DNA of 64,000 nucleotides from Eubacteriaceae bacterium (GTDB lineage Bacteria; Bacillota; Clostridia; Eubacteriales; Anaerofustaceae): positions 140,306 to 204,305 of the forward strand of contig WRIE01000001.1 of assembly GCA_009782875.1 (NCBI GenBank), read 5' to 3'. How positions within the stretch are numbered: position 1 is the stretch's first letter; every line of letters starts with the position of its first letter. Both the position numbers and the translations under genes were made by a program. The notes below the pieces were generated by a model. That model worked only from the letters and a program-made list of their open reading frames with translations. It was not told where the DNA came from and ran no database searches. Positions 12,881-42,199 of this stretch are shown here, piece by piece.

Positions 12881-14176
12881 CTAAAACAACAAACCGTTAA
12901 GCACCTGCTCCACTATCAGCATCGAGCCTGCCACCCCCAGATGGGTCTTGTCGATGACATCCACATAACCCATGCTCGGAAGCGCGTTCTCAACACCGAC
13001 AAAACGAAAACCGGCGCCGACCAGTCGCGATATCGTCGCCCCTGAAGCAAAAACCAGCTCGCTTTCGCCATCTGACATTATGTCCCGGCCAAGCAGCCCG
13101 GACAACCCATGTGCAGCCAGCAGCTCTTCAGTTTTGTGGCGCATGCCATCCATCTCGGGGCAAAAAACGCAGGCTGCCTGTGGCAACATGCCGAAATAGC
13201 CTATGAAAAACTTGAAATAGGCATAAATTTCAGAGTATGTGCCTTCTACAGCGACCCTGGCTCCCCTGGGAAGCCCCACAGACGACGCCAATCGCCAGAC
13301 ATGCATATAGGCTGCAGCCCTTGCCCGCCCGCAGTCTTCCAAAGCGGGTCCAGGATCTGCGCCAAGCCTGGCGCAGATGTCGACGACAAAATCTTCAGTC
13401 GGGCCAAAACCGATTGGAGGGCCGTCGCATAGCATATACGCAGTCCCCAGCGTATCCTCCAAATACTTCGCGGCTCTAATCCCGTACTCATGCCTCACAA
13501 CGATATTTAACGCGGCAGCGCCAATATCCATGATTTCCTCTATTGATGAGCCGGCGCAAAGGGCGCAGTTGACTTTGATTCCGCAAAGGCCAAGCAGGCG
13601 TTTCAACTCAGCCAGGTCCCCTTTGAAGTATTTCTGGAAAAGGGACAGGCCAAGCAAATTCACGGTTTTATCAACAACGGGTTTTTTTTGCGGGTTTAGC
13701 GTCTCAAGCAAAGCCAGCGCTCCGGTTTCAAATCCGGCGCAAATGTCAGTTGAGTAGCCGGGTGTCTCTAGGAGGACAGCATCGATATCGCTAAAAACGT
13801 TGTTTACTATGCCTTCCAAATCATCCCCGATAAGCGCAGCCCCTGGCGTGTTTACAATAGCAAGCAATTTATGGTTGGGCAGTTTTTCTTTGATGTATTC
13901 AAGGCCTTCGACAAGCTTGTCCCTGCCGCCATATATGTAGTCCCCGCTGTCAAGGAAAGTGCTGGGGATGCGGGATTGTCCGAAGAAAAACCTTTCATTG
14001 AAGTTCAACGGGTCAAACTGCTTTTGGCGCAGAATCTGCCTCTCGCTGATCCCGGAGTGGTAATACCTGCAGCCAGTGGGGCCATTGAGGAGCACTACAC
14101 TGCCTGCAACTCCTTCAAGGGCGAAGAGCGCCCCTGAGATGCCGTCAGGAGTAATACTGGTTAAATAATCGTTCAT
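12881..14176 (-). CDS. nitrogenase component 1-like subunit (NifK/BchB position)
   Basis: The 431-residue protein belongs to the oxidoreductase/nitrogenase component 1 superfamily. It keeps the GPTGCRYYH motif with Cys36 and the IGDDLEGIV motif (116-124). The two other cluster-ligand cysteines usual in NifD/NifK are absent: TPDGISGALFAL near residue 10 and NTPGAALIGDD near residue 110 hold none. That pattern fits a partner subunit giving one ligand to a [4Fe-4S] cluster, as BchB gives one Asp in the dark protochlorophyllide reductase. The start overlaps the upstream fusion gene by 32 bases, so the two are probably made together. No nitrogenase cofactor genes are near. Confidence 0.8.
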   Translation of the reverse strand: MNDYLTSITPDGISGALFALEGVAGSVVLLNGPTGCRYYHSGISERQILRQKQFDPLNFNERFFFGQSRIPSTFLDSGDYIYGGRDKLVEGLEYIKEKLPNHKLLAIVNTPGAALIGDDLEGIVNNVFSDIDAVLLETPGYSTDICAGFETGALALLETLNPQKKPVVDKTVNLLGLSLFQKYFKGDLAELKRLLGLCGIKVNCALCAGSSIEEIMDIGAAALNIVVRHEYGIRAAKYLEDTLGTAYMLCDGPPIGFGPTEDFVVDICARLGADPGPALEDCGRARAAAYMHVWRLASSVGLPRGARVAVEGTYSEIYAYFKFFIGYFGMLPQAACVFCPEMDGMRHKTEELLAAHGLSGLLGRDIMSDGESELVFASGATISRLVGAGFRFVGVENALPSMGYVDVIDKTHLGVAGSMLIVEQVLNGLLF

Positions 14177-16364
14177 CGTTCTCCCACTCTCCTCTCAAGC
14201 CCAGAGCCAAAAGGCCTGCCCAGCGCTCTATATAATCAAGGCCTGCAAAGAAGCCGGTGTCATGGACCATTTGCAGCGCGTCAACCACAGCCACTTCGCT
14301 GGGCGCGTTTGATGTGTAATTGCTAAGCAGGATATCAGGCTTGAGCAGAGCAATATCGGCCTCCCGTTTGCTGATATCGTAATCCTCTTCGATAAAGAAC
14401 CCATCGGATATCTTTGTCCTGAATCCCTCGTCGCTTGATGACTTGATTATGCATAGCTTCGCTATCTCGATCCCCGAGTCGACAGCCGCGCCGAGGAGCC
14501 AGTCGAGGTCATGGCTGTATGTGACAACCATCAACCGCTTGCCTTCCAAAGAAGCCCTCAGCCTGCTGGTCGCTTTCTCATAGCGTTCCTTGTTTAGGGC
14601 GACAATCGACTCTGCCACATCTTGTTTCCCGTAGATGCCGCCAATCTCTCTTAGCCAATCCACTGTGTCGCCAAAACCTATCGGAAGTTTTCGGCCGAAG
14701 AATTTGGCCCCGAACTCAGTTTCAAAAAAGCCTTTTAGCTGTCTAGTGGAATAGTCGTCATTTGCCAGCAAGTTCAGCGCAGCCTTGTTGAAGCCTGCAA
14801 GGCTCTCATAATCTGTTTCGCATAAAAAGCGGCAGTTCACCTTCACACCCATTGCCAAAAGATAGCCTTCCACAGCCTCAAACAATTCCGGGGTGTTTCT
14901 ATAGCTTGGCCGTTCGAAAAGAATGTTGACTAGGTTCTCCTCCGGCTGGACTCGTGTGTCGATAACTTGCCTTGCAAGCTCGATGTAGCTCATCATAGTG
15001 CCCTGGGAGTAATCCCCGGTCATATTGCCGTCTGCCTTCAAGGTGAATATCGGCGTGCCGGCATTGCCTAAAGCCCTGGCTTGGTCAATGTCATCCCCGA
15101 TAATCCCTGAGGGGCATGCGCTCGCAATGATGATAGCCTTTGGTTTTCCTGCCATAACCTCGGCAACCTTTTGCTCAAGCTTCTCCATTCCCCCAAAAAC
15201 CATTTCCGGCTCTCCCATGTCGGTAGCCACTAAGTTGGGGGATACAGATGAAGGCAACAGGGAGCCCCTCTCGAAGAGCCGCCTCCTGCCTGTGCCGCCC
15301 ATCCCGTTGTAGGAGATATACACGCAGCTTTTGGGGGCATGCGCAATCACTACTGCATCCCTTATCTGGGTCGCCACATACAATGCGCCATTAAAAGCGC
15401 AACTGGACAACGCTTCCCCGTTTGCGACACTTTTTGACAAGTAGCGCTTGGAGGATGAGAAGTCTAAAAAACTGTTTTTGGCCTGGGCCTCGATACAGGC
15501 AGGCAAGTTGGCGCTAGTGGCAATATCACCCGCAATCCCTGAAGCCTCCGCCTTTTCAGAGAATGTGGCGCCCAATACGATATGCTCCAAGTCCTCATCA
15601 GAAAGGGGCCGGGCTTCATGCTTCTGTACCCCGTTTATGACTGCTTTGGCAAGCAGGTCAAAAATGATAGCCTCGGGGCACTTAGGGCTGGACTCTGCAA
15701 GTGTCATGTTTTTCGCTTCTGCTTCCATAAATGCGCTAGACCGGGGTATGTCTGCGATTACTGGCAGCCCTACAGCCGAGCAAAACGCCTGTACCCGGTC
15801 TGCCTCATCATCAATTCCCCGGCGGTTTAGGATGACACCGCCCACACGAGCCTGGCTGCCATCATAGTTGCGTATTCCCCGCAAGATATTGTTTGCGGCG
15901 TAAAGGGCCATAAACTCCCCTGATGTGACGATAAAAATCGTGTCAGCATACTCCCGGCGGATTGGCACTGCGAAGCCGCCGCAGACAACATCGCCAAGGA
16001 CATCATACATTGTGGCGTCATACCTTCCTTTAAGCTGGAAAGTCGACAGGAGCTCAAACAAGCTGATGATGCCCCGCCCGGCGCAACCTACCCCCGGCTG
16101 GGGGCCGCCCGCCTCTATGCATCCCACGCCTGCGAAACCTGTAGCTAAAATAGCGTTTAAGTTGTAATCTGGCGGGTTTGTGTTTCTCATATAGTCAAGG
16201 GCTGTATCAAGCCTCCTTCCACCAAGCAGCAGCCGTGTGGAGTCGTGCTTGGGATCGCACCCGATTTGGAGCACACTGCTGCCGTTCATTGACATTGCGG
16301 CAGAAAGATTGGCAGCCACAGTGGATTTGCCGATTCCGCCCTTGCCATAAATTGCTATTTCCAT
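14145..16364 (-). CDS. NifH-NifD-like fusion protein, ATP-dependent reductase
   Basis: Residues 1-260 are a NifH/BchL/CfbC-type iron protein. P-loop YGKGGIGKS is at 6-14, CDPKHDSTRLLLGG at 36-49, GVGCAGRG with Cys94, and DVLGDVVCGGF with Cys128; these cysteines bind the bridging [4Fe-4S] cluster in the family. Residues about 300-739 are a nitrogenase component 1 domain with Cys322, Cys347 (HAPKSCVYISY) and Cys417 (ASACPSGIIGDD), a full set of three cluster ligands. One uninterrupted frame joins them. Known relatives make these as separate proteins that dock and separate with ATP turnover. ATG 16364 is chosen over an upstream TTG because GAGAGG precedes it. A role in reducing a tetrapyrrole is inferred from the chelatase neighbours. 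Confidence 0.85.
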   Translation of the reverse strand: MEIAIYGKGGIGKSTVAANLSAAMSMNGSSVLQIGCDPKHDSTRLLLGGRRLDTALDYMRNTNPPDYNLNAILATGFAGVGCIEAGGPQPGVGCAGRGIISLFELLSTFQLKGRYDATMYDVLGDVVCGGFAVPIRREYADTIFIVTSGEFMALYAANNILRGIRNYDGSQARVGGVILNRRGIDDEADRVQAFCSAVGLPVIADIPRSSAFMEAEAKNMTLAESSPKCPEAIIFDLLAKAVINGVQKHEARPLSDEDLEHIVLGATFSEKAEASGIAGDIATSANLPACIEAQAKNSFLDFSSSKRYLSKSVANGEALSSCAFNGALYVATQIRDAVVIAHAPKSCVYISYNGMGGTGRRRLFERGSLLPSSVSPNLVATDMGEPEMVFGGMEKLEQKVAEVMAGKPKAIIIASACPSGIIGDDIDQARALGNAGTPIFTLKADGNMTGDYSQGTMMSYIELARQVIDTRVQPEENLVNILFERPSYRNTPELFEAVEGYLLAMGVKVNCRFLCETDYESLAGFNKAALNLLANDDYSTRQLKGFFETEFGAKFFGRKLPIGFGDTVDWLREIGGIYGKQDVAESIVALNKERYEKATSRLRASLEGKRLMVVTYSHDLDWLLGAAVDSGIEIAKLCIIKSSSDEGFRTKISDGFFIEEDYDISKREADIALLKPDILLSNYTSNAPSEVAVVDALQMVHDTGFFAGLDYIERWAGLLALGLRGEWENDERLFNQYYS

Positions 16365-16382
16365 AATAAATAAACCTCTCAA

Positions 16383-18305
16383 TCAAGCAGAGCGCACAGA
16401 ACCGGAAACGATCTGCACCAAATGCTCTGCGTTCAAGTCCTCTATCCGGTAGTAGTCAGCGCACATGGCCTCGGCAATCTTCTCTGCCAAACCAAGGCGT
16501 ATAAAATCATTTTCAGTATCCACAACCACGCTTTTGATGCCCCTAATGGCGATCTGGTTGGCAAGCGCGTAGACTTCCTCCATAGGTTTCGCTGTTTTAT
16601 CAGATGAGTTTGCGCGCCCGTCAGTGACAAGCACCAATACGGGCAGGATGTCTTTGTCTTTTAGGCGCTCCACCAGTATCGTGTCCAGCGCCAATTCCAA
16701 GCCCTTGGCCATCGGTGTGCGGCCGCCTGTGGGCAATTCAGCCAAGCGTTTTTGGGCAAGCTCCACGCTGCGGGTGATGCTGAGCAGAGTCTCGGCGGAA
16801 TCGTGGCGGAAAGCTATCATCCCCACTTTGTCCCTTTTTTGGTAAGAGTCATTCAGCAGGGAGCAAATAGCCCCTTTTACAGCCCTCATCCGCTGGTTGG
16901 CCCCCATGGAGCCGCTGGCGTCCACAGCGAAGATGATTGTATTGCCAGTGCGTTTCTCGCGGATCTTTTCCCTGAAATCAGAGTTTCTCACTGCGATGGC
17001 CATGCCATTTTTCTCCCGGGTCTTTTGATGCACAGCCGCTGCCCTGATAGTGGCGTCAAAGGCCAAGTCAGTGGTTTTCCCTTTAGGGAACGCAGCCCGC
17101 ACATACCTTCCTTGGCCTGATGTGGTTTTAAGCACATTGCGCCTGCCGCTGCCCTTGTTGATAGAGCGCACAACAGATTCGCTTATCCAAGGGAACACAT
17201 CAAAAGTCTCGCCGATTTCTTGCACATCTTCATCATCGACAGGTGGCGGGGGAGGCAAATCTGGCGGCAGCGGCTGGTTGTCAATCTCTTCTGCGTCATC
17301 TTGGCTGTCCTCGTCGTCCTGGTCATCTACTTGCTCATCCTCTTCGGGCATTTCCTCAGGCGGAGGGGGAGGCGGGTCTTCTGGCCCTTCCTGGTCTTCG
17401 AGCTCTTTGGGCTCCTCCATCTCTTCCATCGGCGGATCCTCTTCTTGTACATAATGGGCATTGTCCCGCACCCTGTGTGGCAGGGCATAAAGCGCCGCTG
17501 TCTGTATGTCCTCGGTGTTCAGCATAATGCGCCCGTCAAGGGCTGCGATAGCCTTCGCTGCCTCTATGATGCAGATCTCCGCCCTGTGGCCTGCGCAGTT
17601 GGAGCGGGCGGACAATGAGGAGGCGAGTTTCATTGCATTCTCGCTAGCCTCGATTTTCTCAAGGTTTTTTGCCGCAATCGCAATCCGGCTTGCCAGTTTT
17701 TCCTGGTCAGCCTCCCATCGCTTCATAAAAGCGGCGCTGTCCCGCTCATAACTGATGCGCCTCTTGATTATCTCTGCCCGGTCATTGGGGTTTTGCTCCC
17801 CCCTAATTTCCACATACAACCCGAAACGGTCTAAAAACTGCGGGCGCAGTTTGCCTTCCTCCGGGTTCATGCTTCCCACCAGCACGAAATTTGACCGGTA
17901 GGAATATGAAATGCCCTCCCTTTCAACGTTGGCTTTGCCGGAAGCTGCGCTTTCCAAGAGGCTGTTGATTATAAAGTCGCTAAGAAGGTTCACTTCATCG
18001 ATATACAGGATGTTGCCATCTGCAGCCGCCAGGATCCCCGGCTCGAAACTTCTTGTGCCTTCCCGGATAGCGGCTTTCAAGTCGATGGAGCCGATAAGCC
18101 TATCCTCTGTGATATTCAATGGCAGCTCAACGATCTTCATACCGCCCATTAAATCAGCCAATCCCCTGGCGACAGTGGATTTGGCTGTGCCTTTCTGGCC
18201 GCTCAGCAAAACACCGCCGATCCTTGGATTGATCGCATTCCACAATAGGGCGTTTTTCATCTCGTCTTGGCCGAGAATAGCGGTAAACGGAAATACTTGC
18301 CTCAT
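16383..18305 (-). CDS. chelatase subunit D-like (AAA+ plus VWA domain)
   Basis: The 640-residue protein has an N-terminal AAA+ domain with Walker A GQKGTAKST (36-44) and Walker B ILYIDEVNLL. A long linker of Pro, Glu and Asp runs about 285-355, and the C-terminal von Willebrand A domain has MIDAS motif DASGSMG. This is the ChlD/BchD/CobT-like plan in which the D subunit links the ATPase ring to the large H/CobN subunit during ATP-driven metal insertion. Unlike some ChlD proteins, both Walker motifs look intact. Its ATG overlaps the stop of the upstream CobN-like gene as ATGA, so the two are translationally coupled. The metal (Mg, Co or other) cannot be told from sequence. Confidence 0.88.
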   Translation of the reverse strand: MRQVFPFTAILGQDEMKNALLWNAINPRIGGVLLSGQKGTAKSTVARGLADLMGGMKIVELPLNITEDRLIGSIDLKAAIREGTRSFEPGILAAADGNILYIDEVNLLSDFIINSLLESAASGKANVEREGISYSYRSNFVLVGSMNPEEGKLRPQFLDRFGLYVEIRGEQNPNDRAEIIKRRISYERDSAAFMKRWEADQEKLASRIAIAAKNLEKIEASENAMKLASSLSARSNCAGHRAEICIIEAAKAIAALDGRIMLNTEDIQTAALYALPHRVRDNAHYVQEEDPPMEEMEEPKELEDQEGPEDPPPPPPEEMPEEDEQVDDQDDEDSQDDAEEIDNQPLPPDLPPPPPVDDEDVQEIGETFDVFPWISESVVRSINKGSGRRNVLKTTSGQGRYVRAAFPKGKTTDLAFDATIRAAAVHQKTREKNGMAIAVRNSDFREKIREKRTGNTIIFAVDASGSMGANQRMRAVKGAICSLLNDSYQKRDKVGMIAFRHDSAETLLSITRSVELAQKRLAELPTGGRTPMAKGLELALDTILVERLKDKDILPVLVLVTDGRANSSDKTAKPMEEVYALANQIAIRGIKSVVVDTENDFIRLGLAEKIAEAMCADYYRIEDLNAEHLVQIVSGSVRSA

Positions 18306-21300
18306 TGTATAACCTCCGTTTTGCCTAAAAATTCGTCTATTTCCTTCAAATTGCGTTTCCAGACATCAACTTTGTCATCAGCGATGATTTCAATCCCGCC
18401 GCCTTGGATTTCGCCACCTACTAAGAACAACCCATCTTCCATGTCTCCTTCGATCTGCAGGTAAGCGTCTTTCAGGGCTTTGAGGACCGCAGGGTCGCCA
18501 TCCCATTTGCCCCGCTCGCCCAGCTCGATGAAACGGCGGGACACCTCTTCCAAGGCGAACCTGTTCTCTTTGGAAAACCACTCCCGGACATGCTCATCAA
18601 GGACGTATTCTTCCACAAGCCTGTCTATGGCGCTGTCTCCAACAACCCCAGACAAAACCTGCAGGGTGAACACATTGTGCACAAAACCCATGATAGCCGC
18701 TGCCCCGTCGTAGCCCTCCTCGAGGATATTCTTCTTCCAGATTGGGTTGAACAGCGTCTCCGCCATGTTTTCAGCTATCTTTTCTTCCAGCCCCATGACT
18801 GCGATGCGCCCTGCCTTTTCAGTGGAGCCTTGGTATGCCTTCGCATTTTTGCCCCCATAGGCTTTGGCTATAAGCCCAAACCCTCCTGTGACACCAGCTG
18901 AGAAGCCTGCATTCAGGACGTTGTACCTTTTCGTCATGGTCAAGTCGTAGGTCACATCAGTGTTTTTGGCGCTGGCGACAAACTCGGCCACTGAGCGCTG
19001 CCCGTCCAGCCCCCTGCCGTAAGCGTGGGCGGATGCTTCAATGAAGTAGCGTATCAAGTCGTTCTCGCTATTCCATGCGCTCGCTTTTAATGCTAGATCG
19101 ATATTGGCCCCGTATGAGCCAGGAGCGTCGCCAAAAATACGCACAGCTGCGCGCCGTTCGGCATCTTCCACTCCCGCAGCGCTTAGTTCGCCAAGAAGGG
19201 CCAGGCTGTGTTTCCTGACATAGTTAGTGTCTTCCCCTTCCTCCAGGTTCGCAGCCAACATGGCAGCGTCATCCAACAAAGCGACGATTTCCGGCCATGA
19301 ATCCCGCAGGATTCCAGAGATGCGCACAGTGACGTCAATCCGTGGGCGGCCGAGCTCATGGAGCGGAATGGCTTCCAGTCCAGTGACCTTGCCTGAGCTG
19401 TCCCAGATAGGCTTTATGCCCATCAAACTCATCATCTGCGACATTTGCTCCCCTTTGGAGACAGTCACATCTGTGGAGATCATATTCATAGCAATCTGCT
19501 CTGGAAAAACCCCTTCTTCTTCCAGGTATTTATCAACCAGCGCATTGGCAAGCTGCTCGCCTATGCTGTAGGCGGTTTGGGTTGGTATGCGCGCTGAGTC
19601 AGATGTGAACATGTTGCGCCCTGTAGGGATGAATTCCCTGCCGTTGTTGTCCGGCGCGCCAAAAATCCCCGGTGGTATGTAGCCTCCGGACAAGCCGGAG
19701 AAGAGGCTGTCCATTTCTTGGCTGGCAAGGGTCAACTTGGCCTTTATATCCCTAATGTCTGCGTCCGGCAAGGGACCTGCCTCTTTTGCGGACAGTTCAT
19801 CGATATAAGCGGCAACGCCATCCGCATCGGGGGCGCGTCCAAAAACATGCCGCTTGGAGATAGCCGGGCTAGACGCAGCGCTGGCCAGCAATTGGCTTAC
19901 AAGCGAAATTCCCGCAGCCGGATCTTCCTCAGCATCAAACATGGCAAGCAATTCGGGCAGCGCAGACAACTCTTTTTTGATGCTGCCAAAAATCGCGTCT
20001 GCCTGTGCTGTCCCGGTCTCGGAAGCTTGCCTGTGTTCCTCAATCAACCTAGAAAGCTGTTTATACTCATCCCTGGCTCCGCTGGCGATTGAAGGCATAT
20101 GGTCGACAATAGCCCCAAATGCCCGCCGTTTGGCCACGACAGCCTCTCCGGGCACTGCGCTGTTGTAGATATATAGGTTCGGCAGGCTCCCAAGGGCTAT
20201 CACAGGCCAACAGTCCTCAGAAAGAGCGCTGGATTTGCCGGGCAAGAAGTCCATGGATCCGTGTGTACCCACATTCACAATGGCATCAGCCTTTATGCCG
20301 TGCTGGATATGCCAAAATGTCGCTAAATACTGGTGCGGGGGAGGGCAGAGGGGGTCTTGGAGTATCTTGCAGACCTCTCCAGTGCACTTGGCCCCATAGC
20401 AGCCACGTTTCGGCTCCACAAACAGGCTGATGTTGCCAAACTCTAATCCAGTGATGATGAGGCTATCGCCTTCAACCATCCCTTCCCCTGGCGGAGGGCC
20501 ATACAACTCCTCTATCTTTGCGCGGTTTGCGCCAGACAGCTGGGAGTACCAAACATCGTACTCTTCAAGGCCCATTTTGTGCAGAGCCCCTCCAGAGGCG
20601 ATAATGTCCTCTACACTAGTCCATCTGAAGTCGCTGATAGCTTTTGTATCCAAGATGAGGTTCTTAAGGGCTCCTCCGTTTTCAGGGATATTTTCAAGTG
20701 TGTAGCCCTCATCCTGCATGCGCCTCATAATCTGGACAACACTTTCAAAGCTGTCCAGCTGGTAAGCCGCGCCAATTGTTGCCTCAACACCTGAGCAAGG
20801 GGCGTTGTGCATAATTAATGCGATGCGTTTGTCTGAATTGGCCTTTTTTCTTAAGCCCACCCATTTGGCCGCCCTTTCGGCGAAATTGCTTATGCCGCCC
20901 TTGATGGGGACGGGTTTATCCTGGGCATCCTTCGCGCCTATAAAAACCGGTTCTATCATCCCCTGTATTTCTGGGGTCATATAGCTCCAAGCCATCTCGG
21001 CTGATATTGGGTGGGCTTCTTTTTGCCAATTGTCCACAGTGCAAAAGTACGATGCTATAGGCTTTATCACGGGCATATCCAGCTTCCCGTAAAAGCTTGC
21101 CGCTGCCTCAAATGAGCTTTCTGGCGAGGTTGTTGCAGCTGCGAAATGCATCCGGTTGACAAAAGCATCGATTACTGGCGCCCCCTGCTCGCAGAAAAGA
21201 TCCTCGAATATTGCCTCAAAACTGCGGTCGGCATCGGTATTTTCTGTAAAGCCGCATATGAGGCTGATGCCATGGCCCAGAAGCTCTGTGGCCAAACTCG

Positions 21301-26816: not shown

Positions 26817-26820
26817 AGCG

Positions 26821-26941
26821 TTCTGTTCCTCCTTAAGAGCATGTATGCCATCAGAACAAGGGCAGTGATGGCGCCGATTGGCAACTCGTCGTAGAGCCTG
26901 GGCAGCAAAGCCGCAAGGGCACAGGAGAAGTGATAAAACGA
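26821..26941 (-). pseudogene. remnant of a permease C-terminus
   Basis: The DNA just upstream of the ABC ATPase matches the last codons of the intact permeases further right (leucine-rich ALVxxxLMxYMLLRR ending and the preceding PIG block) but nothing else of the gene remains. It joins directly to the broken end of the binding-protein copy to its right, so a deletion probably removed most of a permease and the end of a binding protein. Confidence 0.65.
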
Positions 26942-28051: not shown

Positions 28052-28129
28052 TTTGATTTCCACCTCTAAAACAAAGTTCTTTCTTGTCGGTCATGGAACA
28101 ATGCGCTTGCTGGCGCAATGCTCCTTTTC

Positions 28130-29666: not shown

Positions 29667-29877
29667 GTTGGGCCCCACAGTATCCTGCTGGATTTCTGTA
29701 TCCCTCTTGGCCACTGCCGCCTAGCGCGCAAGGCGCACAGGCCAAGGCAGCTGCTTTATATCTGGCCATGCCATCAATGTCCTTTCTTCATTTTTTCATT
29801 TTGCCAAAGGTTGGCTCGAAATTATTTCGCAACCATGCCCGGATTAATACAAGCCCGGGCGCTGCATGTCCACACTA

Positions 29878-31078: not shown

Positions 31079-31127
31079 TTCATCAATTTCCCTACTTCTG
31101 CCTGGCAATTATCAAATTTAAATGTGC

Positions 31128-32159: not shown

Positions 32160-32245
32160 AGCTACTCCTTGTCCGCCCCATCCACAAGCGGGATGCAAAT
32201 GCGGATTTCATGGTTTTTAAACGGAAGATTGCAGCCAACTTTGGG
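32160..32245 (-). pseudogene. tail remnant of a lost binding-protein gene
   Basis: The bases upstream of permease C align with the last 25 or so codons of binding-protein copy B: LAAIF, then a frameshifted match to the HPDVFEGHKIRHYNP region, ending in the same GAGTAGCTATG junction with the permease. The rest of the gene is missing. It shows that permease C formerly sat behind its own binding protein. Confidence 0.65.
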
Positions 32246-33301: not shown

Positions 33302-34438
33302 CTACTCACCAACCGGATTGTAATGGCGGATTTTATGGCCTTCAAACACATCCGGGTGGAAGATGGCAGCCAAGTCGACAACTTGCATGTCTGCTTGGTT
33401 TGTATTGACATAGTAAAACACATCAAACTGCCATACATTGCGCTCTACCACCACTGGGGCATCCGCTGCCACTGGCGCAAGCTCCAGGAGGGCCCTGTAG
33501 CTTGGCATATAATTCTTGTTTGACGAGTAGATCCAAATGTCTGCGCCAGCCAACACCGTGTAGAATTCCTCCAGGCTGATCTGGGTGCTGCCTACACCTG
33601 GGATATGCGAAAACAGGTAATCCCCGCCTGCGGCGCGCACAGCTCCAGCTACATATGACTCGTTGCCTGGCACGTAAACGATGCCGCTGCGGACCGTCCC
33701 CCACACTACTTTAGGCTTGTCGCGGCCAGCTACTAATGCCTCCATCTGGGCCAAGTTTTCAACCTGTTGGTCCACATAACTTGACGCTTCCTCTTCGTAG
33801 CCAAAGAAAGCAGCCAAAAATTTTGTCCATTCCAGCCTGCCCAAATGGGTTTCTTCCATGTATTCATTGTCCACAGCCACCGGGATACCCAGTTGAGCCA
33901 GCATGTTGATGAGGTCTGTCTGGGTGGTTGAAGTCCCTGTGAAAACAAAGGCGAGCTCTGGGTCGATTTCCTGTATCAATTCGTAATCCGGTGTATTGCT
34001 GCCGATGTATCTAATCTTTCCGGATGCCAAATACTCTTCGATATTTGTGAATTCCCCCCAAGTGCCTGCATCGCCAGACACCCCGGCAAAATAATCCAAG
34101 ATTCCGTCATAATGGGCTATCATGCCTACTTGGGTGCTAGAGAAAGAAAGCGCCCTTTCAACAGGTGTGTACAGCACAATAGCGTCCTCGTAGCCTTCAG
34201 GCGCCGGCTCTCCCCTGGGCACCAGCAAGAATTTCTGGTTTTCCGCATCAGTGACCATTTTTGCGCCATCTTCCAAATATTCGATGGAAAAGGCGTTTGA
34301 ATTCTCGACTTTCAAAAATTTCGACTTGTTTCCGGCTTCCTCTTGGCCGGTGCCATTTTCTGCGGCAGGTTTGCAAGATGCAAAAGCCAAGGCAGCCGCA
34401 ATCGCCGCCAACACAAGCCTTGATTTATACTTTGCCAT
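33302..34438 (-). CDS. ABC substrate-binding lipoprotein, copy B
   Basis: The 378-residue protein is an intact TroA/BtuF-type lipoprotein: signal peptide with lipobox FASC, the FLLVPRGEPAPEGYEDAIV block, TPVERALSFSSTQVGMIAHY, YVPGNESYVAGAVRAAGGDY and the tail DLAAIFHPDVFEGHKIRHYN. It is followed with a two-base gap by permease B. ATG 34438 (MAKYKSRLVLAA) is preferred; an ATG nine bases upstream is in frame and shares the AAAGGA site. Ligand is inferred to be a corrinoid or related metal complex from the riboswitch context. Confidence 0.8.
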   Translation of the reverse strand: MAKYKSRLVLAAIAAALAFASCKPAAENGTGQEEAGNKSKFLKVENSNAFSIEYLEDGAKMVTDAENQKFLLVPRGEPAPEGYEDAIVLYTPVERALSFSSTQVGMIAHYDGILDYFAGVSGDAGTWGEFTNIEEYLASGKIRYIGSNTPDYELIQEIDPELAFVFTGTSTTQTDLINMLAQLGIPVAVDNEYMEETHLGRLEWTKFLAAFFGYEEEASSYVDQQVENLAQMEALVAGRDKPKVVWGTVRSGIVYVPGNESYVAGAVRAAGGDYLFSHIPGVGSTQISLEEFYTVLAGADIWIYSSNKNYMPSYRALLELAPVAADAPVVVERNVWQFDVFYYVNTNQADMQVVDLAAIFHPDVFEGHKIRHYNPVGE

Positions 34439-34498
34439 GCCATCCATGTCCTTTCTTTATTTTGCCAAAATTGGTATTATAAAAAAATTATTAAAACC

Positions 34499-34629: not shown

Positions 34630-35065
34630 CTATCCTTGCCTTGTGGCGACAGGCAGCCCGGCTAACGATACAAACCCGGCAAAACCGGCAGCCCCCATAG
34701 CGGCTTATAGCCCGCAGAATGGAGGAGTGAAGGATTCCTGGCCGGCAAAAGCGACCAGGAATCGCTTCAGACTGAAGATAGTAAATATTCTGCCATCATC
34801 CCGATGGCCAAGGGTACCACAATGCCTTGGCTTTTCCGGGATGCCAGAAACACTGCAACCATTGCTGCAAAGGCGACTGCCAGAAAAGCCGGTAATCATA
34901 AACAATGGCGCCCCAATGCTATATCTTGCCTATATCCGCCAAGTATGGCGATATTTAGAAACATAACCGAGCTGGAGCTGGTCCCCCAGCATAAAGGCAC
35001 GGCTATGGAGTTTGCGAAAAGAATCTGCGCCAAGCTGCCAGCGCTAGCCACACACCCGAAACTTC
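34630..35065 (-). pseudogene. decayed permease copy
   Basis: The stretch aligns with permeases B and C in pieces: the VPHLA region at its left, the AGQES and CSSVRSI blocks in the centre, the GSLAGAF and YSMETP blocks, and the VEPYVLGISSGS and LALAGLLVQIF regions at its right. Deletions and frame shifts leave no usable frame. It would have been the permease of the unit to its right. Confidence 0.7.
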
Positions 35066-35656: not shown

Positions 35657-36789
35657 CTAATCTGCCAGCAGATGGTAGTGCCGGAATTCGTGGCCTTCAA
35701 ACACATCCGGATGGAAGATTGCAGCTAATTCGACAACTTGCATGTCTGCCTCATTTGTGTAGTAATAGTAAAATTCGTCAAACTGCCATACATTGCCGTT
35801 TGCCACCACCGGGGCATCTGCTGCCACTGGGGCAAGCTCAAAAAGGGCTTTATAGCTTGGCAAATAATTCTTGTTTGATGGGTAGATCCAAATATCCGCC
35901 TCAACCAAAGTCGCATAAAACTCCTCGATGGAAATCTGGGTGCTGCCTGCCCCTACAATGCCACTGAAGATATAGTCCCCTCCAGCGGCGCGCACAGCCC
36001 CGGCTACATATGACTCGTTGCCCGGCACATATACAACGCCGTTGTAAACCATCCCCCAAGCGACTTTGGGCTTGCCCTTGCCAGCGATCAATGCCTCCAT
36101 CTGGGCTAAATTCTCAAGCTGCCAGTCCACATAGCTTACCGCCTCATCTTCGTATCCAAAGAAAGCAGCTATGAACTTTGTCCATTCCATACGGCCTTGG
36201 TGGGTTGCTTCCATGTACTCATTGTCCACAGCCACCGGGATCCCGAGCTGGGTCAGCATGTTGATAAGGTCTGTCTGGGCTGAATTCCCTGTGTAGACAA
36301 AGGCTATTTCCGGGTTGATTTCCTGCACCAACTCGTAATCTGGGGTGCTGCTGCCTCCAAGGTATTTGATTTTTCCCGATGCTAAATACTCTTCGATGTT
36401 TTTTACTTCCCCCCAAGTGCCAGCATCGCCAGTCACGCCTCCAAAATAATCCAAAAGGCCGTCATAATGGGCAACCATGCCCACTTGGGTAATTGAGAAA
36501 GAAACCGCCCTCTCAACAGGGTAGTAGAGCAATATAGTGTCCTCATAGCCTTCAGGCGCCGTCTCGCCCCTGGGCACCAGCAAGAATTTCTGGTTTTCCG
36601 CATCAGTCAGCAGCTTTGCGCCATCCTCCAAATATTCGAGGGAAAAGGCGCTAGCATACTCGACTTTCATAAATCTCTTGGAGCCTGCTCTCCCCCAGTG
36701 TTGGCGCCAGTGTCTGCGGCAGGCTTGCATGAAGACAACAACAGAACAAGCGCGATAAAACAGGCAAATGCTGCTCTATTGCTACGCAT
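35657..36789 (-). pseudogene. ABC substrate-binding lipoprotein, copy A, one-base frameshift
   Basis: ATG 36789 overlaps the last 8 bases of the chelatase I gene and encodes a lipoprotein signal ([20 protein letters not shown], then C). The frame then closes about 36667. The rest of the protein (KRFMKVEYASAFSLEYLEDG through DVFEGHEFRHYH, stop at 35657) is open in the -1 frame. The join falls at or near a run of five G (about 36690-36694); a sixth G would give a continuous TGGRAGSKRFMKV. All later blocks are intact, so this may be phase variation, a sequencing error or a fresh mutation rather than an old pseudogene. Confidence 0.75.
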
Positions 36790-37822
36790 GTTGGGTCTCA
36801 TCTTGCAAAATCGCGTCGACAATTGAAAAATCGAGCTTGCCTTCCTCAAAAGGCCTCCTGCGCATCCGGTGGGGAAGTGCCAGCACCGCTGCTTCCCGCA
36901 AATCCGCCTTTGTGATGTTAGTGCGCCCGCCAAGAGCCGCTAGCGTGGCTGCTGTTTTTACCATTGTGATATCAGCCCTGTGCCCGTCAACCTGAAGCTC
37001 GATGGCAATTCTCGCTGCTGTGTTGACTGTCTCGTTGTCAATCACTACCTCAGGCAGGATCGCAATCGCGTTCATCACCGATTCGCGCACTATCTGCTGT
37101 TGGGGCTCATAGGCGGCCGCAAAAGCGTCGGGGTCCCTCTCGTACTCCAAGCGCCTTTTGATAACTTCTGTGCGGTCATCCACTTCCCGTTCCCCGACAA
37201 CGTCGGTGACCATCCCAAACCTGTCCAGCAGCTGGGGCCTCAAATCCCCTTCTTCCGGGTTCATTGTGCCCACAAGGGTTAAACGGGCTGGATGGCTTAT
37301 GGAAACACCCTCCCTTTCAACTGTGTTGGTGCCCATAGCCACAGAGTCCAAAAGAACATCCACAACATGGTCGTCGAGAAGGTTCACCTCGTCGACATAG
37401 AGGATGTTGCGGTTAGCCCTTGCCAAAATACCGGGCTCAAAGCTTTTTTCGCCCTTCTTGATTGCCTGCTCGATATCCAAAGAGCCTACAACCCTATCCT
37501 CTGTGGCGCTGACGGGCAAGTCCACAACGCGCATGGGCGCGGTTATAACGCCAAACTCTTCGCCTGCCTCCGTTTTGGCCGCGCAATCATCGCAAAGAGA
37601 GCTGATGTCGTCGGGATCGCAGTTGAAGAGGCAATCCTCTACTTGCCTCCTCTCAAGCATCAGCTCCGCCAAAGCCCGCACAGCGGTAGACTTGGCAGTG
37701 CCCTTCTCTCCCCGGATCAAGACTCCCCCCAAAAGAGGGTTCACTAAATTCAAAATAAGCGCCTTTTTCATCATCTCTTGTCCCACAATTGCTGTGAAGG
37801 GGTAGATTTTTTTCTCTTTCAT
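36782..37822 (-). CDS. chelatase AAA+ subunit I (ChlI/BchI type)
   Basis: The 346-residue AAA+ ATPase has Walker [10 protein letters not shown], Walker [17 protein letters not shown], the [18 protein letters not shown] sensor region and a four-Cys insertion ([17 protein letters not shown]) seen in many ChlI proteins. ChlI forms the ATP-hydrolysing ring that with ChlD drives metal insertion by the H/CobN subunit. ATG 37822 is chosen because AAGGAG lies upstream and the protein then begins at the family start (PFTAIVGQ). The gene is the first after a cobalamin riboswitch with a terminator, so B12 status should switch it and probably everything downstream. Confidence 0.9.
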
Positions 37823-37846: not shown

Positions 37847-37881
37847 TAAAAAAATAGCCATGGCAAGAATCTGCCATAGCC
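37847..37881 (-). terminator. riboswitch-controlled intrinsic terminator
   Basis: On the - strand GGCTATGGCA pairs with TGCCATGGCT (two G-U-type positions), followed by seven T. It stands between the riboswitch core and the chelatase I ribosome site, the normal place for a B12-induced terminator. Confidence 0.75.
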
Positions 37882-37934
37882 GGATTTCCATGAAAGTACC
37901 CAAAAGCCGCGCTAAAACAAGCAAGCCTTTGTTT

Positions 37935-38115
37935 GTGTTTGTAGGTCTTCTGGCTTGCGTGCTTCCGGGGTTTATCCCACGCCTATAGCCCAGCCTTCTC
38001 AGTTTCCCAATGACCGGTTTTCACCTAGGGCTATAGCCTTGCACGTTTACAGCGGCGGGTTCCGCGCAGGATTTTCACCTGCTTCCCTTGTCAAGCCGCT
38101 AAAAAGCGGCCACAA
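37935..38115 (-). ncRNA. cobalamin riboswitch 2
   Basis: Read on the - strand, the element contains the class hallmarks in order: GGGAAGCAGGTGAAAATCC, GCGGAACCCGCCGCTGTAA, a GGTCA/GGGAA segment and AGCCAGAAGACC. The P1-P6 arrangement is standard. It begins about 20 bases after the stop of the CbiR-like gene and precedes the chelatase I gene, so it divides the long - strand gene run into two separately controlled parts. Adenosyl- or aquo-cobalamin binding would be expected to stop transcription. Confidence 0.93.
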
Positions 38116-38134
38116 ACATTACGAATTCTATTGT

Positions 38135-39112
38135 TCAGCTGCTAAACACAGCCGTATTCAAGTAGCTGATCTGCTCTTTAAGCAGCCTGCTATGTGCCAG
38201 GCGGTCTATGCTCATAAACTCTAGAGTGAGATAGAGCGGGTTTATCCTCTCAATAATTTCGTTGATGCGCCGGGAAGGGAACGGCACGTGGTTGTCTATG
38301 TTGTAAATATGCCTCATCAGCGCAGAACGGCGCTCTTTGTAGCTTCCGGGGCCTGGGATCCAAGAAGCCATTAAATTCTGGGCATACTCCCCGCTAAGTG
38401 ACAGGTGCAAGTGAATGCCCTTGATGATGGACAAATCCGGATATGTGTCTAAAACACTGTGGATATAGTCCACTCCCTCGTCCACCCCGCGAAGGGATAT
38501 GTTGGTGTTCATCAAATGGCCAATATCCAGCATGATCCCGGTTTTTCTATACACAGTGGCGCCAATAAGCCTATAAGCCAAGTCAACATCCAGCATATCC
38601 AGGCCTGGGTACCATAGGTTTTCATATAAAAACCAGACATCTTTTGGTATTGACTGGGCAAAACTGTCAACCAGCTTAGCCGTTTCAGCTGCCACTTGTT
38701 TTGAATTGTAGTGGTAGCAGCGCAACATGGACTCGCTTAGCTGGCATTCGGAAACATGGTACACAAGATACTCCGGATTATACTTTGACGCGAAATCCAG
38801 GTTGTCCTTGAATGCGGCTGTCAATGCGCCCTTTGTAGATCCACCATAAATTTCCTCGACTGTCTCGTTGTCGCCATATTCGCTATGGAGCCTTTTTATG
38901 TCTCCCAGCCACAAGTCCATCCACGAGGTAAAATAACGCAGATGCACCCCAACCACATCACCGGGCAAGGCAATGCCTTCCAGCTCGTTTACCCCTTGCA
39001 TGAGCTCAACCCCGTCCAGGGAAAACTCATTGTAGAAATTTATCAAGTCAGCATTGCATGAGTACCTTCCTGCGTCAAAATCATTGGTGGTGAAATTCAT
39101 CATAAGTTTCAT
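38135..39112 (-). CDS. AP-endonuclease-2-family TIM barrel, CbiR-like
   Basis: The 325-residue protein is a xylose isomerase/AP endonuclease 2-type TIM barrel. Acid and His residues sit where the family places them: YLVYHVSE, LYENLWYPG, MLDIGHLMNTN, GIHLHLS and LTLEFMS. CbiR, a cobamide-remodelling hydrolase of this superfamily first described in Akkermansia, removes the lower ligand from cobamides. The place of this gene, last in a riboswitch-controlled unit with cbiZ, makes that role plausible here. Overall sequence likeness to CbiR cannot be measured without a database. It starts 5 bases after the exporter permease. Confidence 0.65.
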   Translation of the reverse strand: MKLMMNFTTNDFDAGRYSCNADLINFYNEFSLDGVELMQGVNELEGIALPGDVVGVHLRYFTSWMDLWLGDIKRLHSEYGDNETVEEIYGGSTKGALTAAFKDNLDFASKYNPEYLVYHVSECQLSESMLRCYHYNSKQVAAETAKLVDSFAQSIPKDVWFLYENLWYPGLDMLDVDLAYRLIGATVYRKTGIMLDIGHLMNTNISLRGVDEGVDYIHSVLDTYPDLSIIKGIHLHLSLSGEYAQNLMASWIPGPGSYKERRSALMRHIYNIDNHVPFPSRRINEIIERINPLYLTLEFMSIDRLAHSRLLKEQISYLNTAVFSS

Positions 39113-39117: not shown

Positions 39118-39846
39118 TTATTCAGCTTTCTTGCATACATTGACCGCAACCGGAAACAAAACAAGGCACCATGCCGCCAAAACGGCAGGCACAACCCAGC
39201 TGTTAGGCCCTGCAGCGCCTTGCCGCAGCCCGGTGACAGCCATTGACAAGGGCAAAAACTCAAAGAGTGCCCGAAGCAAAACCGGGAAACGGTCCAAGGG
39301 GAAAAGGGTACCGCATAAGAATGACATAGGCGTTATCACAAAGTTGCTCACCTTGGCCATATCCCCATGGGATTTGATCAACAATCCCACAATAAACCCG
39401 ATAATCGAAAACACTGCGCAGTTAAGGGCAAGAACCAGCAAAAAATAAGGGGACAGAACCAAACTGCGGTCAAACAGCAGGGAAACTGCTATGATCAGCG
39501 TGGCGCAGTAAATGCCCCTTCCGATGCCCACAGCAACCTTTGCCATGGTATACGCCACAGGGGTGATAGGTGACATCATCTCCGCCTCAAATGTCTTGTC
39601 ATATAGGCGTGAGATATTCAGCGAGCTTGCGATAATGCCAAAACTAACACTCATTGAGTTCATCGCCACAATCCCCGGTATCACAAAAGACACATAGCTT
39701 TGGCCGGCGACTGAGACCTGCCCTCCGATGCCCCATCCAAATGCAAGCAAGTAAAGGGTCGGCCCAACTACTGCCGATATGGTATTGCTTGCAATTTTGT
39801 TCAGGAAAACTATCCAGTCTTTCCATATTACAGCCTTGAATGTCAT
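39118..39846 (-). CDS. ABC-2 type transporter permease
   Basis: The 242-residue protein has six membrane segments and the ABC-2 (NodJ/DrrB-like) pattern, including the family stretch FCGTLFPLDRFP between segments five and six. Proteins of this class usually export lipids, drugs or glycans together with a NodI/DrrA-type ATPase. Here the ATPase gene lies directly upstream and overlaps it by ATGA. The gene sits between cbiZ and a CbiR-like gene, an unusual place for an exporter. It may pump out unwanted products of cobamide remodelling; that is inference. Confidence 0.85.
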   Translation of the reverse strand: MTFKAVIWKDWIVFLNKIASNTISAVVGPTLYLLAFGWGIGGQVSVAGQSYVSFVIPGIVAMNSMSVSFGIIASSLNISRLYDKTFEAEMMSPITPVAYTMAKVAVGIGRGIYCATLIIAVSLLFDRSLVLSPYFLLVLALNCAVFSIIGFIVGLLIKSHGDMAKVSNFVITPMSFLCGTLFPLDRFPVLLRALFEFLPLSMAVTGLRQGAAGPNSWVVPAVLAAWCLVLFPVAVNVCKKAE

Positions 39847-40685
39847 GATTCTGCTATCCTCCTGTTAGTAAGCGCAACGAACACATCCTCCAAGTTTGCC
39901 TCGCGGACCTGGAAACTGGCATTGAGCCATTCTGATGCCTTGACTGCCTCCTCACGGGCGTTAAAGAACTGGTATACCATTTCCCCGTCCTTGAAGTACT
40001 CCAATATATAATTTCCATGGCTGGCAATTAGCGCGCTAGGGCTGTCAAGCTGGACCATTTTGCCTTTGTCGATCAAGCCGACCCTAGAGCACAACGCCTG
40101 GGCTTCTTCGAGATAATGGGTAGTGAGAAAAATCGTCAGCCCTTGGCTGTTCATATTGCGCAGCAAATCCCAGATATTTCGCCTTGCTGTCGCATCCAAT
40201 CCCACAGTGGGCTCGTCTAGAAACAAGACATCGGGACTATGCATCAGCGCCTTGATTATCATCAGCCTGCGACGCATGCCGCTGGAGTATGAGGATGCTT
40301 TGTCGTCTGCCCTGTCAGAAAGCTCGGCAAACTCTAAAAGCTCGTCAATCTTGCTTTTGCGCAAAGATGTGTCCATGCCATACAAACGCCCGTGGTAATC
40401 CAAGTTTTGGCGTGCAGATATTTCGGCTTCCAAGTTCGTGTATTGGGGCACAACGCCAAACCGCTGCTTCGTTTTCGACAAGTCCCGGTTGATAGGCTCG
40501 CCGTCGATCAATATAGCCCCTGAGCTTACTGCTGTCAGGGCAGTTGTCATCCGGATGATAGTGGTTTTGCCTGCCCCATTCGGGCCGAGGAGCCCAAAAA
40601 ATTCTCCGTCAGGGATGTCAAGGCTAATGCCGTCTACCGCAGCCAAATCCCCGTAAAATTTGCTGACATTTTGGTATTCGATCAT
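39843..40685 (-). CDS. ABC-2 type transporter ATPase (DrrA/NodI-like)
   Basis: The 280-residue ATPase has Walker A GLLGPNGAGKTT, the signature YSSGMRRRL, Walker B VLFLDEPTVGLD and switch His in TTHYLEEA. The SSGMRRR signature and the C-terminal extension are typical of DrrA-like export ATPases, not of the uptake type found at 25611-26816. ATGA overlaps join it to cbiZ upstream and to the permease downstream, so one B12-controlled message makes all of them. Confidence 0.9.
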   Translation of the reverse strand: MIEYQNVSKFYGDLAAVDGISLDIPDGEFFGLLGPNGAGKTTIIRMTTALTAVSSGAILIDGEPINRDLSKTKQRFGVVPQYTNLEAEISARQNLDYHGRLYGMDTSLRKSKIDELLEFAELSDRADDKASSYSSGMRRRLMIIKALMHSPDVLFLDEPTVGLDATARRNIWDLLRNMNSQGLTIFLTTHYLEEAQALCSRVGLIDKGKMVQLDSPSALIASHGNYILEYFKDGEMVYQFFNAREEAVKASEWLNASFQVREANLEDVFVALTNRRIAES

Positions 40686-41797
40686 TGCTCCTCCGTTTTG
40701 CCAAGCTTGTTGGAGACGAGTTTTGCCAGCCCCGCTTCCAAAGCTGATATTAGACTGTCTGCGTTGGCGGCCATATCTTCCCCAAGGCTATCCATCCCCA
40801 TTTCCCCCATCAGGAGATTTGCGTAACGATAAGCATTTCCAATTGTCACAAGCCCCCATTCAAACTCGTCAAGAAGGCGGGCATACAGCCCAACCCCGGA
40901 AGCGATAAGCCCTTGGGCAGCGATATCTTCAAGCTCTTGTGCAAAGCGGGCTTTCATAACCCCGCAAGGGCCTTGTATGCCAAGCCTATTCCAAATTGAT
41001 TCGGGCGTGACGCCAAACCTCGACACCCGGTTTAGCGCATTGCGCTGGGTTAAGGGGCTTAGCCCGGTCTGCAGCTTGAGGGCCTCCTTGACCGCGGGTT
41101 TCACTGTTTTTCCTATCAACTCTCCAAGTTTTCCATGCTTGCCCGCATCCACCAGGGTTATTACGCTCTCAGAGTTGCAGACAATAGTGGTGGAATCGGT
41201 CCCGCTGCCTGTGGCAACCCCCCTGGAGTATTTGCTGGGCGCGTCCAGCTCTTGGAGCGCCGCCGTTTTTGCCTCGGTGCATGTCACAAGGGCGCGGGCA
41301 AGCGCTCCATCGGTCAGGTTCACGCTGATAAACATCATTATATTGATAGTGCCCGACGAGGGATCCACATGTTTTTTTGCCAGTTCGTCGTAAGTAGTCG
41401 GGTCTCCAACTCTTCCCCCATTAGTCTCGACTCCGCCAGTCACAACAGCTGTGACTGTGATGTCTTTATAGGAGTTGGTTTTGATAGAGACATTCTCCAT
41501 TTGCGCGGCAGTGCCGATGCCTGCCGTTTTTTCTGGGTCGAGGCCCAGCTCCCTGCATAACACAACAATATGCTCTTCATATGTTGGGGCTTTTAGCTGT
41601 GAAGCCATGCCTGCCCCGCTAGTGCCGTCATTGTTGTATACTGCGCTCAAATCACCCCGGATCCCGCCATTGACGCGGGAAGTGGAAATTGTCTTTCTCT
41701 TTCCGGCAAAATTGACTACAATCGACTTTTGGTACCTATGTATCTCTTCGCCTGTCACAAGAGTCCCGATTAGCATTTTTTCTTCCTCTCCATGCAT
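40682..41797 (-). CDS. cbiZ: adenosylcobinamide amidohydrolase CbiZ
   Basis: The 371-residue protein matches CbiZ (PF01955): SRVNGGIRGDLSAVYNND, TAVVTGGVETNGGRVGDP, TIVCNSESVITLVDAGKHGK and a helical C-terminal half. CbiZ cuts the aminopropanol side chain off adenosylcobinamide, or adenosylpseudocobalamin in some species, giving adenosylcobyric acid for re-use with a preferred lower ligand. ATG 41797 is chosen for the AGAGG site; an ATG 24 bases upstream is in frame. A cobalamin riboswitch with terminator precedes it. CbiZ implies import of corrinoids made by others. Confidence 0.9.
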   Translation of the reverse strand: MHGEEEKMLIGTLVTGEEIHRYQKSIVVNFAGKRKTISTSRVNGGIRGDLSAVYNNDGTSGAGMASQLKAPTYEEHIVVLCRELGLDPEKTAGIGTAAQMENVSIKTNSYKDITVTAVVTGGVETNGGRVGDPTTYDELAKKHVDPSSGTINIMMFISVNLTDGALARALVTCTEAKTAALQELDAPSKYSRGVATGSGTDSTTIVCNSESVITLVDAGKHGKLGELIGKTVKPAVKEALKLQTGLSPLTQRNALNRVSRFGVTPESIWNRLGIQGPCGVMKARFAQELEDIAAQGLIASGVGLYARLLDEFEWGLVTIGNAYRYANLLMGEMGMDSLGEDMAANADSLISALEAGLAKLVSNKLGKTEEQ

Positions 41798-41842
41798 GTA
41801 TTTGCCTCTTTCTATTTGCAAGCTTGCATTGTTTGTGATAAA

Positions 41843-41877: not shown

Positions 41878-41929
41878 ATAGGGCATTTTGCCTAAAAAAC
41901 TTGCGCCTCCTCTATCACGCGTAGGGTGT

Positions 41930-42110
41930 TATGGCACAAAAAAACAGGCAGGTATTCTGGCTTAAGCGTCATCGTCCTCCAAGCCTTTCTGGCAAAACCA
42001 ATGGCATTATTGGCGGATTCTTCTTTTTACAGTGGCGGGACCGCGCGGGATTTTCACCCGGCTTCCCTGAAGTGGGCGAAAGCGCCCACCCTGTTTTTTT
42101 TTATTCAATT
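41930..42110 (-). ncRNA. cobalamin riboswitch 1
   Basis: The - strand carries AGGGAAGCCGGGTGAAAATC, GCGCGGTCCCGCCACTGTAA, a TGCCATTGG segment and AGCCAGAATACCTGCC, the ordered core of the B12 class. It lies between a good promoter and the terminator preceding cbiZ. It should shut off cbiZ, the exporter and the CbiR-like gene when B12 is plentiful. Confidence 0.92.
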
Positions 42111-42170
42111 GTTGCCAAGACCGTTTGTTTCCAGCCGTATAGCCATATGTTGACAGTCCTGACACGAGGA

Positions 42171-42199
42171 AGTGTAACAGATTTTTTTGATACCGTCAA
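42171..42199 (-). promoter_or_regulatory. promoter of the cbiZ unit
   Basis: On the - strand TTGACG (42199-42194) and TACACT (42176-42171) are 17 bases apart, just upstream of riboswitch 1. This is the only strong promoter I see for the long - strand run, although internal promoters are likely. Confidence 0.6.

Follow-up and report, generated by a model that had tools for sequence, protein, structure and literature searches.

What does a nitrogenase-like reductase do in a gene cluster for metal chelation and corrinoid uptake that lies under two vitamin B12 riboswitches? Known nitrogenase-like enzymes reduce N2, protochlorophyllide, chlorophyllide, an F430 precursor or C-S compounds. We examined this question in a window (the whole stretch of DNA analysed) of 64,000 nt on contig WRIE01000001.1 of a Eubacteriaceae bacterium, whose genome assembly measures 3.19 Mb in 109 contigs and is 92% complete. 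The window contains a 29-kb cluster on the minus strand (12881-42109), with all parts co-oriented, which encodes a NifH-NifD fusion and a NifK partner (NifHD-NifK). We propose that these proteins may form an ATP-driven corrinoid reductase, which would reduce imported corrinoids so that the cell could exchange their cobalt and reuse the parts for its own B12. We give this reading a probability of roughly 45%.

In 5' to 3' order, the cluster consists of riboswitch 1, CbiZ, an ABC exporter ATPase, an ABC-2 permease, a CbiR-like protein, riboswitch 2, a hairpin, ChlI, BtuF and BtuC copies, BtuD, CobN1, CobN2, ChlD, the NifH-NifD fusion and NifK. Riboswitch 1 (41930-42109, RF00174, 79.4 bits) is located 5' of CbiZ, and riboswitch 2 (37923-38132, RF00174, 90 bits) is located 5' of ChlI and the long operon. 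Both cobalamin aptamers exceed the Rfam gathering score of 31.5. A terminator-like hairpin with a T run (37856-37881) lies between aptamer 2 and ChlI; the terminator scan found 1 hairpin against 0.5 expected, a count that alone is not significant, and the same type of scan found none after aptamer 1. The fusion (14145-16364, 739 aa) matches Fer4_NifH (3.8e-88) and Oxidored_nitro (2.5e-64), and NifK (12881-14176, 431 aa) matches Oxidored_nitro (3.2e-46). The six genes from BtuD to NifK are spaced by -4, +11, -4, +18 and -32 nt, and gaps in this range suggest that they form one transcript. An earlier reading of the DNA letters alone (the sequence-only reading) had described a co-oriented cluster with these parts under two cobalamin riboswitches, and every part it named is present on this strand. 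That reading had missed the ABC-2 exporter pair (39118-40685), and BtuF proved to be a tandem array.

Of the chelatase subunits, ChlI (36782-37822, an AAA+ protein whose start is the ATG after AAGGAG) and ChlD (16383-18305, AAA+ and VWA) were assigned by Pfam and NCBIfam. ChlI scored 425 against the TIGR02030 cut-off of 467, and ChlD scored 442 against 500 (TIGR02031) and 710 against 779 (TIGR02442). Two large subunits of the CobN/BchH type (905 and 1204 bits in Pfam) are present: CobN1 (21877-25614) reaches 877 bits with TIGR02257 (cut-off 822), and CobN2 (18302-21865; PF02514, 905 bits) is below every NCBIfam cut-off listed. In a quick tree with SH-aLRT support only, the two fall into separate subfamilies, and the archaeal CobN proteins encoded in such clusters (L206, L020, L241) group with CobN1. 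CobN2 is followed by a second CbiC in genome G036 and by a CbiR-like gene in G004, and these neighbours would suit a corrin substrate. CbiZ, of the adenosylcobinamide amidohydrolase family (40682-41821), matches PF01955 at 2.4e-55 (188 bits, cut-off 27). The CbiR-like protein (38135-39112, 325 aa, predicted TIM barrel) gave no hit in Pfam when searched directly, with E as high as 1 allowed. A protein of a relative (L135), which shares 33% identity with it at 98% coverage, matches the AP_endonuc_2 TIM barrel (2.7e-12), so the link to CbiR goes through this relative and is tentative. CbiR hydrolyses the phosphoribosyl bond of cobamides, according to the accessible text of PMC7733943.

The reductase belongs to a wider family. 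Among 7997 candidates scored, 2887 proteins, not all of them fusions, match the fusion at E <= 0.001; the 120 matches listed are all 712-793 aa long with both domains, and the closest named one comes from an Oscillospiraceae metagenome-assembled genome (MAG; 62% identity). Two of the fusions (P0002, P0003) share 62% identity with that of the window. A scan of named genomes found the fusion in Clostridia, a Treponema, methanogens and a Myxococcota MAG. In a NifH tree of 48 parts, the 20 fusion rows form one clade (97/95), separate from 7 Nif rows (100/99), 5 CfbC rows (100/100), 9 rows that we presume to be group VI-like, and BchL and BchX. In a component-1 tree of 59 rows, the 18 D parts form a clade (98/90), as do the 18 K parts (98/96), and the 5 CfbD rows cluster at 100/100 away from the D parts. 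The D clade has as its sister the D part of L044, a Bacillota locus in which the genes are unfused; for the K clade, the K parts of L046 and L064 take this position. Because each Bch reference is one long branch, the exact place of Bch is unsure. Judged from these trees, the NifH, D and K parts each appear as a clade apart from the sampled Nif, CfbC/CfbD and Bch rows. The sequence-only reading had inferred that the cluster makes or remodels a metal-tetrapyrrole or corrinoid other than bacteriochlorophyll and F430, an interpretation that is partly supported. The L044 set itself (7690-10920), with NifH, D and K genes adjoining BtuC in a Bacillota MAG, is possibly an unfused form of the family.

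The ligand residues are consistent with a cluster shared between D and K. Three Cys in D and one Cys in K are invariant (18/18). The column of Cys275, the FeMo-cofactor ligand, is not Cys in 17 of the 18 D parts and is Asn in the window protein. K keeps one of its three P-cluster Cys, and the set of six is incomplete (three in D, one in K, 18/18). The NifK model (pLDDT 79.9; residues 40-83 under 50) was matched by Foldseek first to an FeFe-nitrogenase chain, with DPOR chains close behind, and by VIA-align first to DPOR (34.8 versus 33.3 for the best nitrogenase chain). The NifHD model has a pLDDT of 79.6 and a pTM of 0.65.

We compared the family with the known nitrogenase-type systems Nif, DPOR, COR, CfbCD and Mar and rejected membership in these. 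Nitrogenase (Nif/Vnf/Anf) was rejected on the replaced Cys275, the incomplete P-cluster Cys and a NifH part outside the Nif clade. DPOR (BchLNB) was rejected on its separate clades and on the Cys of K where BchB has Asp, and COR (BchXYZ) on the parts not grouping with BchX, BchY and BchZ, each a single long-branch reference. CfbCD was rejected since the NifH and D parts fall outside the CfbC and CfbD clades. Methylthio-alkane reductase/Nfl was rejected on the trees and on Cys275, which is present in the rows we take to be Nfl/Mar-like and absent here. In the window's genome, PF00148 matches occur only in two NifHD-NifK pairs, with no CfbD, and the lack of another PF00148 gene indicates that there is no NifEN.

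Among the 119 Methanosarcinia genomes drawn, 17 carry the fusion at E <= 1e-80, and the regions of all 17 were examined. CbiZ together with BtuF, BtuC and BtuD precedes NifHD-NifK in five of them (L019 of Methanococcoides vulcani, L201, L203, L204, L206). L200 has BtuC, BtuD and CbiZ, L202 has CbiZ with a CbiR-like gene, and neither CbiZ nor BtuC was found near the fusion at L205, L207-L213, L237 and L238. L206 and L019 also have ChlI, ChlD and CobN, the last split over two frames in L019. A 282-aa gene after NifK in L206 is CbiK (PF06180, 4.5e-39), with similar genes in L200, L203 and L019. In Methanoregula (L020), we found CbiZ, ChlI, ChlD, BtuFCD, NifHD, NifK, an ABC-2 pair and CobN. The combination of reductase, chelatase and uptake genes thus recurs in three methanogen loci (L206, L019, L020), indicating that its occurrence in the window is more than chance. 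The sequence-only reading had suggested comparing the gene order in other Clostridia; the full combination turned up in methanogens and was not found in the close relatives examined. A Methanomethylophilaceae genome (G072) has several NifHD-NifK copies beside CobN, BtuC/BtuD or an ABC-2 pair (L241-L244, L197), and unfused D and K genes between CobN genes (L239). Two Methanosarcinia genomes have DUF1638-type genes directly upstream of NifHD-NifK (L209:11323-14025, L238:4168-6155), of which L209:11323-12189 matches PF07796.

These associations were counted at 41 family loci and 63 other NifH loci. CbiZ was found at 8/41 versus 0/63 (p 0.0004), BtuC at 15/41 versus 5/63 (p 0.0006) and CobN at 6/41 versus 0/63 (p 0.003). 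Any of six corrinoid genes was found at 19/41 versus 5/63, the five being the loci with BtuC (L044, L046, L062, L064, L077). The 41 omit loci on short contigs (L021, L027, L031) and duplicates (L023 = L241, L026 = L236), and include L028 and L239, which are not one fused frame. The count covered about 10 kb on either side for the window, so its own CbiZ and BtuC are uncounted.

We also compared whole carrier genomes, of which there are 27 once G073 and G226, the same genome, are counted together. Of these, 21 have CobN (19/19 archaea, 2/8 bacteria) and 26 have the corrin-making gene CbiC, the exception being a Sporobacter MAG. In the window's class, CbiC occurs in 5/5 carriers versus 105/391 genomes (p 0.0013; p 0.005 with one genome per genus), and the window's genome has both CbiC and HemB. 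These frequencies suggest that the reductase is associated with organisms that make corrin and does not depend on the presence of CobN. We found BtuFCD-CbiZ-CobN-ChlI-ChlD-ABC-2 islands in C. tetanomorphum and in relatives from the window's order, and the ABC-2 exporter pair recurs beside CobN in relatives. NifHD was not found within the island stretches L126-L138 and L247, and C. tetanomorphum has a NifHD-NifK pair on a contig other than that of its island. Radical SAM genes lie in islands L126, L131, L134, L136, L138 and L247, and several islands carry what reads by inspection as cobalt-uptake CbiM/N/Q/O. Of 12 further genomes from the window's taxonomic family, only G018 gave a match to CobN2 at E <= 1e-60, and no NifHD was found in the three CobN stretches examined there. 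Stretches L126-L127, L131-L133 and L136-L138 (G036, G019, G035) contain several CobN paralogues with ChlI/ChlD, BtuFCD, CbiZ and a SPASM-type radical SAM gene (PF04055). G112, G183 and other Methanosarcinia have CobN-type frames of up to 2622 codons, much above the usual, in several copies per genome.

Cobalamin riboswitches accompany the family outside the window too. A cobalamin riboswitch lies ahead of NifHD on the same strand at 5 of the 16 bacterial family loci scanned, namely the window and four further bacteria in which NifHD-NifK stands without a chelatase (L014, L015, L017, L236). In L014 the riboswitch is followed by a CbiR-like gene, NifHD and NifK, and in L015 it is 166 nt before NifHD. 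L017 has a partial aptamer 3.7 kb ahead of NifHD with BtuC and BtuD in between. In L236 the riboswitch (34.6 bits, just above 31.5) is 5.3 kb ahead of NifHD, and the neighbours in between and further on encode a double ABC ATPase, a prenyltransferase-like SLH protein, a DUF4430 protein and an ECF S component, which together we take to resemble an ECF-type uptake set for B12. The window's genome has a third intact CobN elsewhere, which comes immediately after a BtuF-type gene and a further cobalamin riboswitch. Of the reductase-free chelatase islands, those in L126, L134 and L137 also have a riboswitch ahead of them. The riboswitch in L138 is oriented towards other genes, and no cobalamin riboswitch was found for the islands in L130, L136 and L247.

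The sequences show which genes and riboswitches are present, that NifH and NifD are fused, which residues serve as ligands, that the parts form clades of their own and which neighbours recur. From this we infer a substrate, an electron destination and a chelatase direction as follows. At low B12, the riboswitches would let transcription pass, BtuFCD would import foreign corrinoids, and CbiZ and the CbiR-like protein would remove the nucleotide tail. Using ATP, the NifH part would reduce a [4Fe-4S] cluster, for which D would supply three Cys ligands and K one. This cluster would hand the electrons on to the corrinoid, where the simplest acceptor would be the cobalt, brought to the Co(I) level. 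The metal would then be taken out or swapped by CobN-ChlI-ChlD, the ABC-2 pair would export the product or leftover, and cobalt and corrin would re-enter the cell's own B12 pathway. A stronger form, which we hold to be doubtful, is that NifHD/NifK is the first nitrogenase-type enzyme acting on vitamin B12: its ATP-driven super-reduction would loosen the inert cobalt, CobN-ChlI-ChlD would pull or swap the metal, and bacteria and methanogens would thereby mine corrinoids for cobalt and corrin under B12 shortage.

Several observations weigh against a corrinoid reductase working with the chelatase. Only a single bacterium was seen to have all the parts together. CobN is missing from 6/8 bacterial carriers, so chelatase and reductase need not act together, and we rejected the idea that they are always paired. 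None of the six corrinoid genes is near the fusion at 22 of the 41 family loci, and the locus counts are not independent because several loci come from one genome (seven from G072). The archaeal CobN and CbiC frequencies stand without a baseline comparison. The Rfam scan found no riboswitch at 11 of the 16 bacterial loci (L005, L016, L018, L022, L027, L028, L030, L031, L233-L235). The D profile scores best against methylthio-alkane reductase chains 9d9u/9fmg (3.4e-32) and VnfD. BtuC and BtuF families serve haem and siderophores too, and we know of no enzyme that removes cobalt from a corrin.

The cluster might instead make a ring-reduced metal-tetrapyrrole or corrinoid cofactor not yet known, with CobN-ChlI-ChlD inserting cobalt into a metal-free corrin or an imported tetrapyrrole and NifHD/NifK reducing the ring in the manner of COR and DPOR. 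ATP-driven chelatases of class I (CobN/ChlH with ATPase partners) are known to work in the direction of insertion (PMC7689651). The CbiC behind CobN2 in G036, the CbiC of the carriers and the COR-like ligands fit such a pathway. We regard it as unlikely, as CbiZ, the CbiR-like protein and BtuFCD belong to salvage, 6/8 bacterial carriers are without CobN, and we recognised no other enzyme in the cluster that would modify the ring.

Stand-alone NifHD-NifK in riboswitch units with importer genes and without CobN (L017, L236) raises the alternative of activation only. NifHD/NifK would then be an ATP-dependent Co(II)-to-Co(I) reductase, a step understood to need a low-potential electron, or would strip upper ligands (cyanide, methyl), for re-adenosylation of imported corrinoids, and the chelatase would be a neighbour with a separate task. 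Such an activity would also serve salvage-only bacteria, yet 26/27 carriers have CbiC, and CobN-ChlI-ChlD shares a tight gene run with the reductase in the window. This makes an activation-only role rather improbable.

The second NifHD-NifK pair of the window's genome (contig C20, L005:11411-15733; fusion 47% identical) has no riboswitch and no corrinoid genes nearby; its neighbourhood includes a ThiF-like frame and a gene resembling URO-D (PF01208, weak at 0.0025). This URO-D-like neighbour and the 22 loci without corrinoid genes would suit a B12-sparing isoenzyme, in which NifHD/NifK does the reaction of a B12 enzyme. B12 riboswitches are understood to control B12-independent isoenzymes as well, so this would explain the riboswitch without a corrinoid substrate. 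However, the carriers make corrin, and CbiZ, CbiK, CobN, ChlI/ChlD and BtuC are neighbours in methanogens, so we give it little credence. A FeMo-cofactor type reductase, such as methylthio-alkane reductase or nitrogenase, would agree with the best D-profile scores and is highly improbable in view of the lost Cys275, the single P-cluster Cys of K, the separate clades and the lack of NifEN.

The proposed corrinoid reductase resembles several known systems in part. Like COR and DPOR, it would be a NifH-type enzyme made of two components, in which a [4Fe-4S] cluster is predicted to bridge the subunits; it has the 3+1 Cys pattern of COR (three in Y, one in Z) in 18/18 cases, its modelled NifK appears nearest to DPOR chains, and a class I chelatase is present in the Bch pathway too. 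It differs from both in its separate clades (with the caveat of single long Bch branches), in the fusion of NifH to D, and in being surrounded by corrinoid rather than photosynthesis genes. CfbCD of F430 synthesis also combines a NifH-type ATPase with a nitrogenase-like partner in methanogens, whereas CfbD has ligands S,C,C in a single-subunit enzyme, CfbC and CfbD fall in other clades, and all 10 archaeal fusion carriers tested have their own CfbD besides. HmuS/BtuS of Bacteroides (PMC12583661, PMC6460266) are CobN-family proteins in anaerobes, and HmuS demetallates a tetrapyrrole; unlike the system here, which encodes ChlI and ChlD, HmuS removes the metal without ATP (PMC12583661).

A 2012 paper (PMC3464626) mentioned fused nifH-nifE-like genes followed by nifN-like genes from Archaea, Firmicutes and Deltaproteobacteria without presenting the data, and excluded them from its phylogeny; its accessible text gives no riboswitch, chelatase or corrinoid context. 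Group VI nitrogenase-like genes of Elusimicrobia were proposed for tetrapyrrole modification (Meheust et al. 2020, as cited in the accessible part of PMC11257099). The loci that we provisionally take to be group VI-like (L046, L062, L064, L077) adjoin BtuC, but are unfused, and the rows so labelled form a separate NifH clade. Among the titles and abstract beginnings listed from open-licence papers, a weak basis for absence, none connected nitrogenase-like genes with B12 riboswitches or with the salvage of corrinoids.

If true, a B12-tied family in Bacteria and Archaea would add a substrate class, and thus a new job, for nitrogenase-like enzymes. It would open to experiment how cells process or demetallate foreign corrinoids, and would give a testable role to archaeal CobN genes, whose function is called unclear in the accessible text of PMC12583661. 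The family also bears on nifH surveys, because such genes can pass for nitrogen fixation.

The remaining genes of the cluster are transport genes. The ABC exporter ATPase (39843-40685), an open frame resembling ABC ATPases that adjoin CobN in relatives, precedes the ABC-2 type permease (39118-39846, PF01061 2.4e-23). Five BtuF copies make up the tandem array, four of them long (60-76% identical) and one broken: copy d (35657-36730), which lacks a clear start, copy c (33302-34447, PF01497 9.5e-20), copy b (29948-31108), a copy split across two frames (28605-29714) and copy a (26942-28063), all but copy c assigned from open frames and copy comparison. The BtuC-type permease (32268-33299) was assigned by likeness to BtuC-type genes of relatives, and the second copy (31128-32198), an open frame, is 83% identical to it in DNA. 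BtuC-like DNA remnants (69-76% identity) lie between BtuF copies at 28156-28407 and 34690-35057, which suggests repeated duplication and decay in the uptake part. The BtuD-type ATPase (25611-27047, PF00005) has an extra C-terminal part, and its true start is probably further in; its best NCBIfam match is the corrinoid ABC ATPase PRK09536 (221 bits, below its cut-off). Just downstream of the cluster (5576-12839), we observed about four long tandem paralogous transporter-like genes of 460-489 aa, one of them broken (8715-9859). Further along, a gene at 604-1788 resembles by eye a URO-D-type corrinoid methyltransferase, which would suit a high B12 demand.

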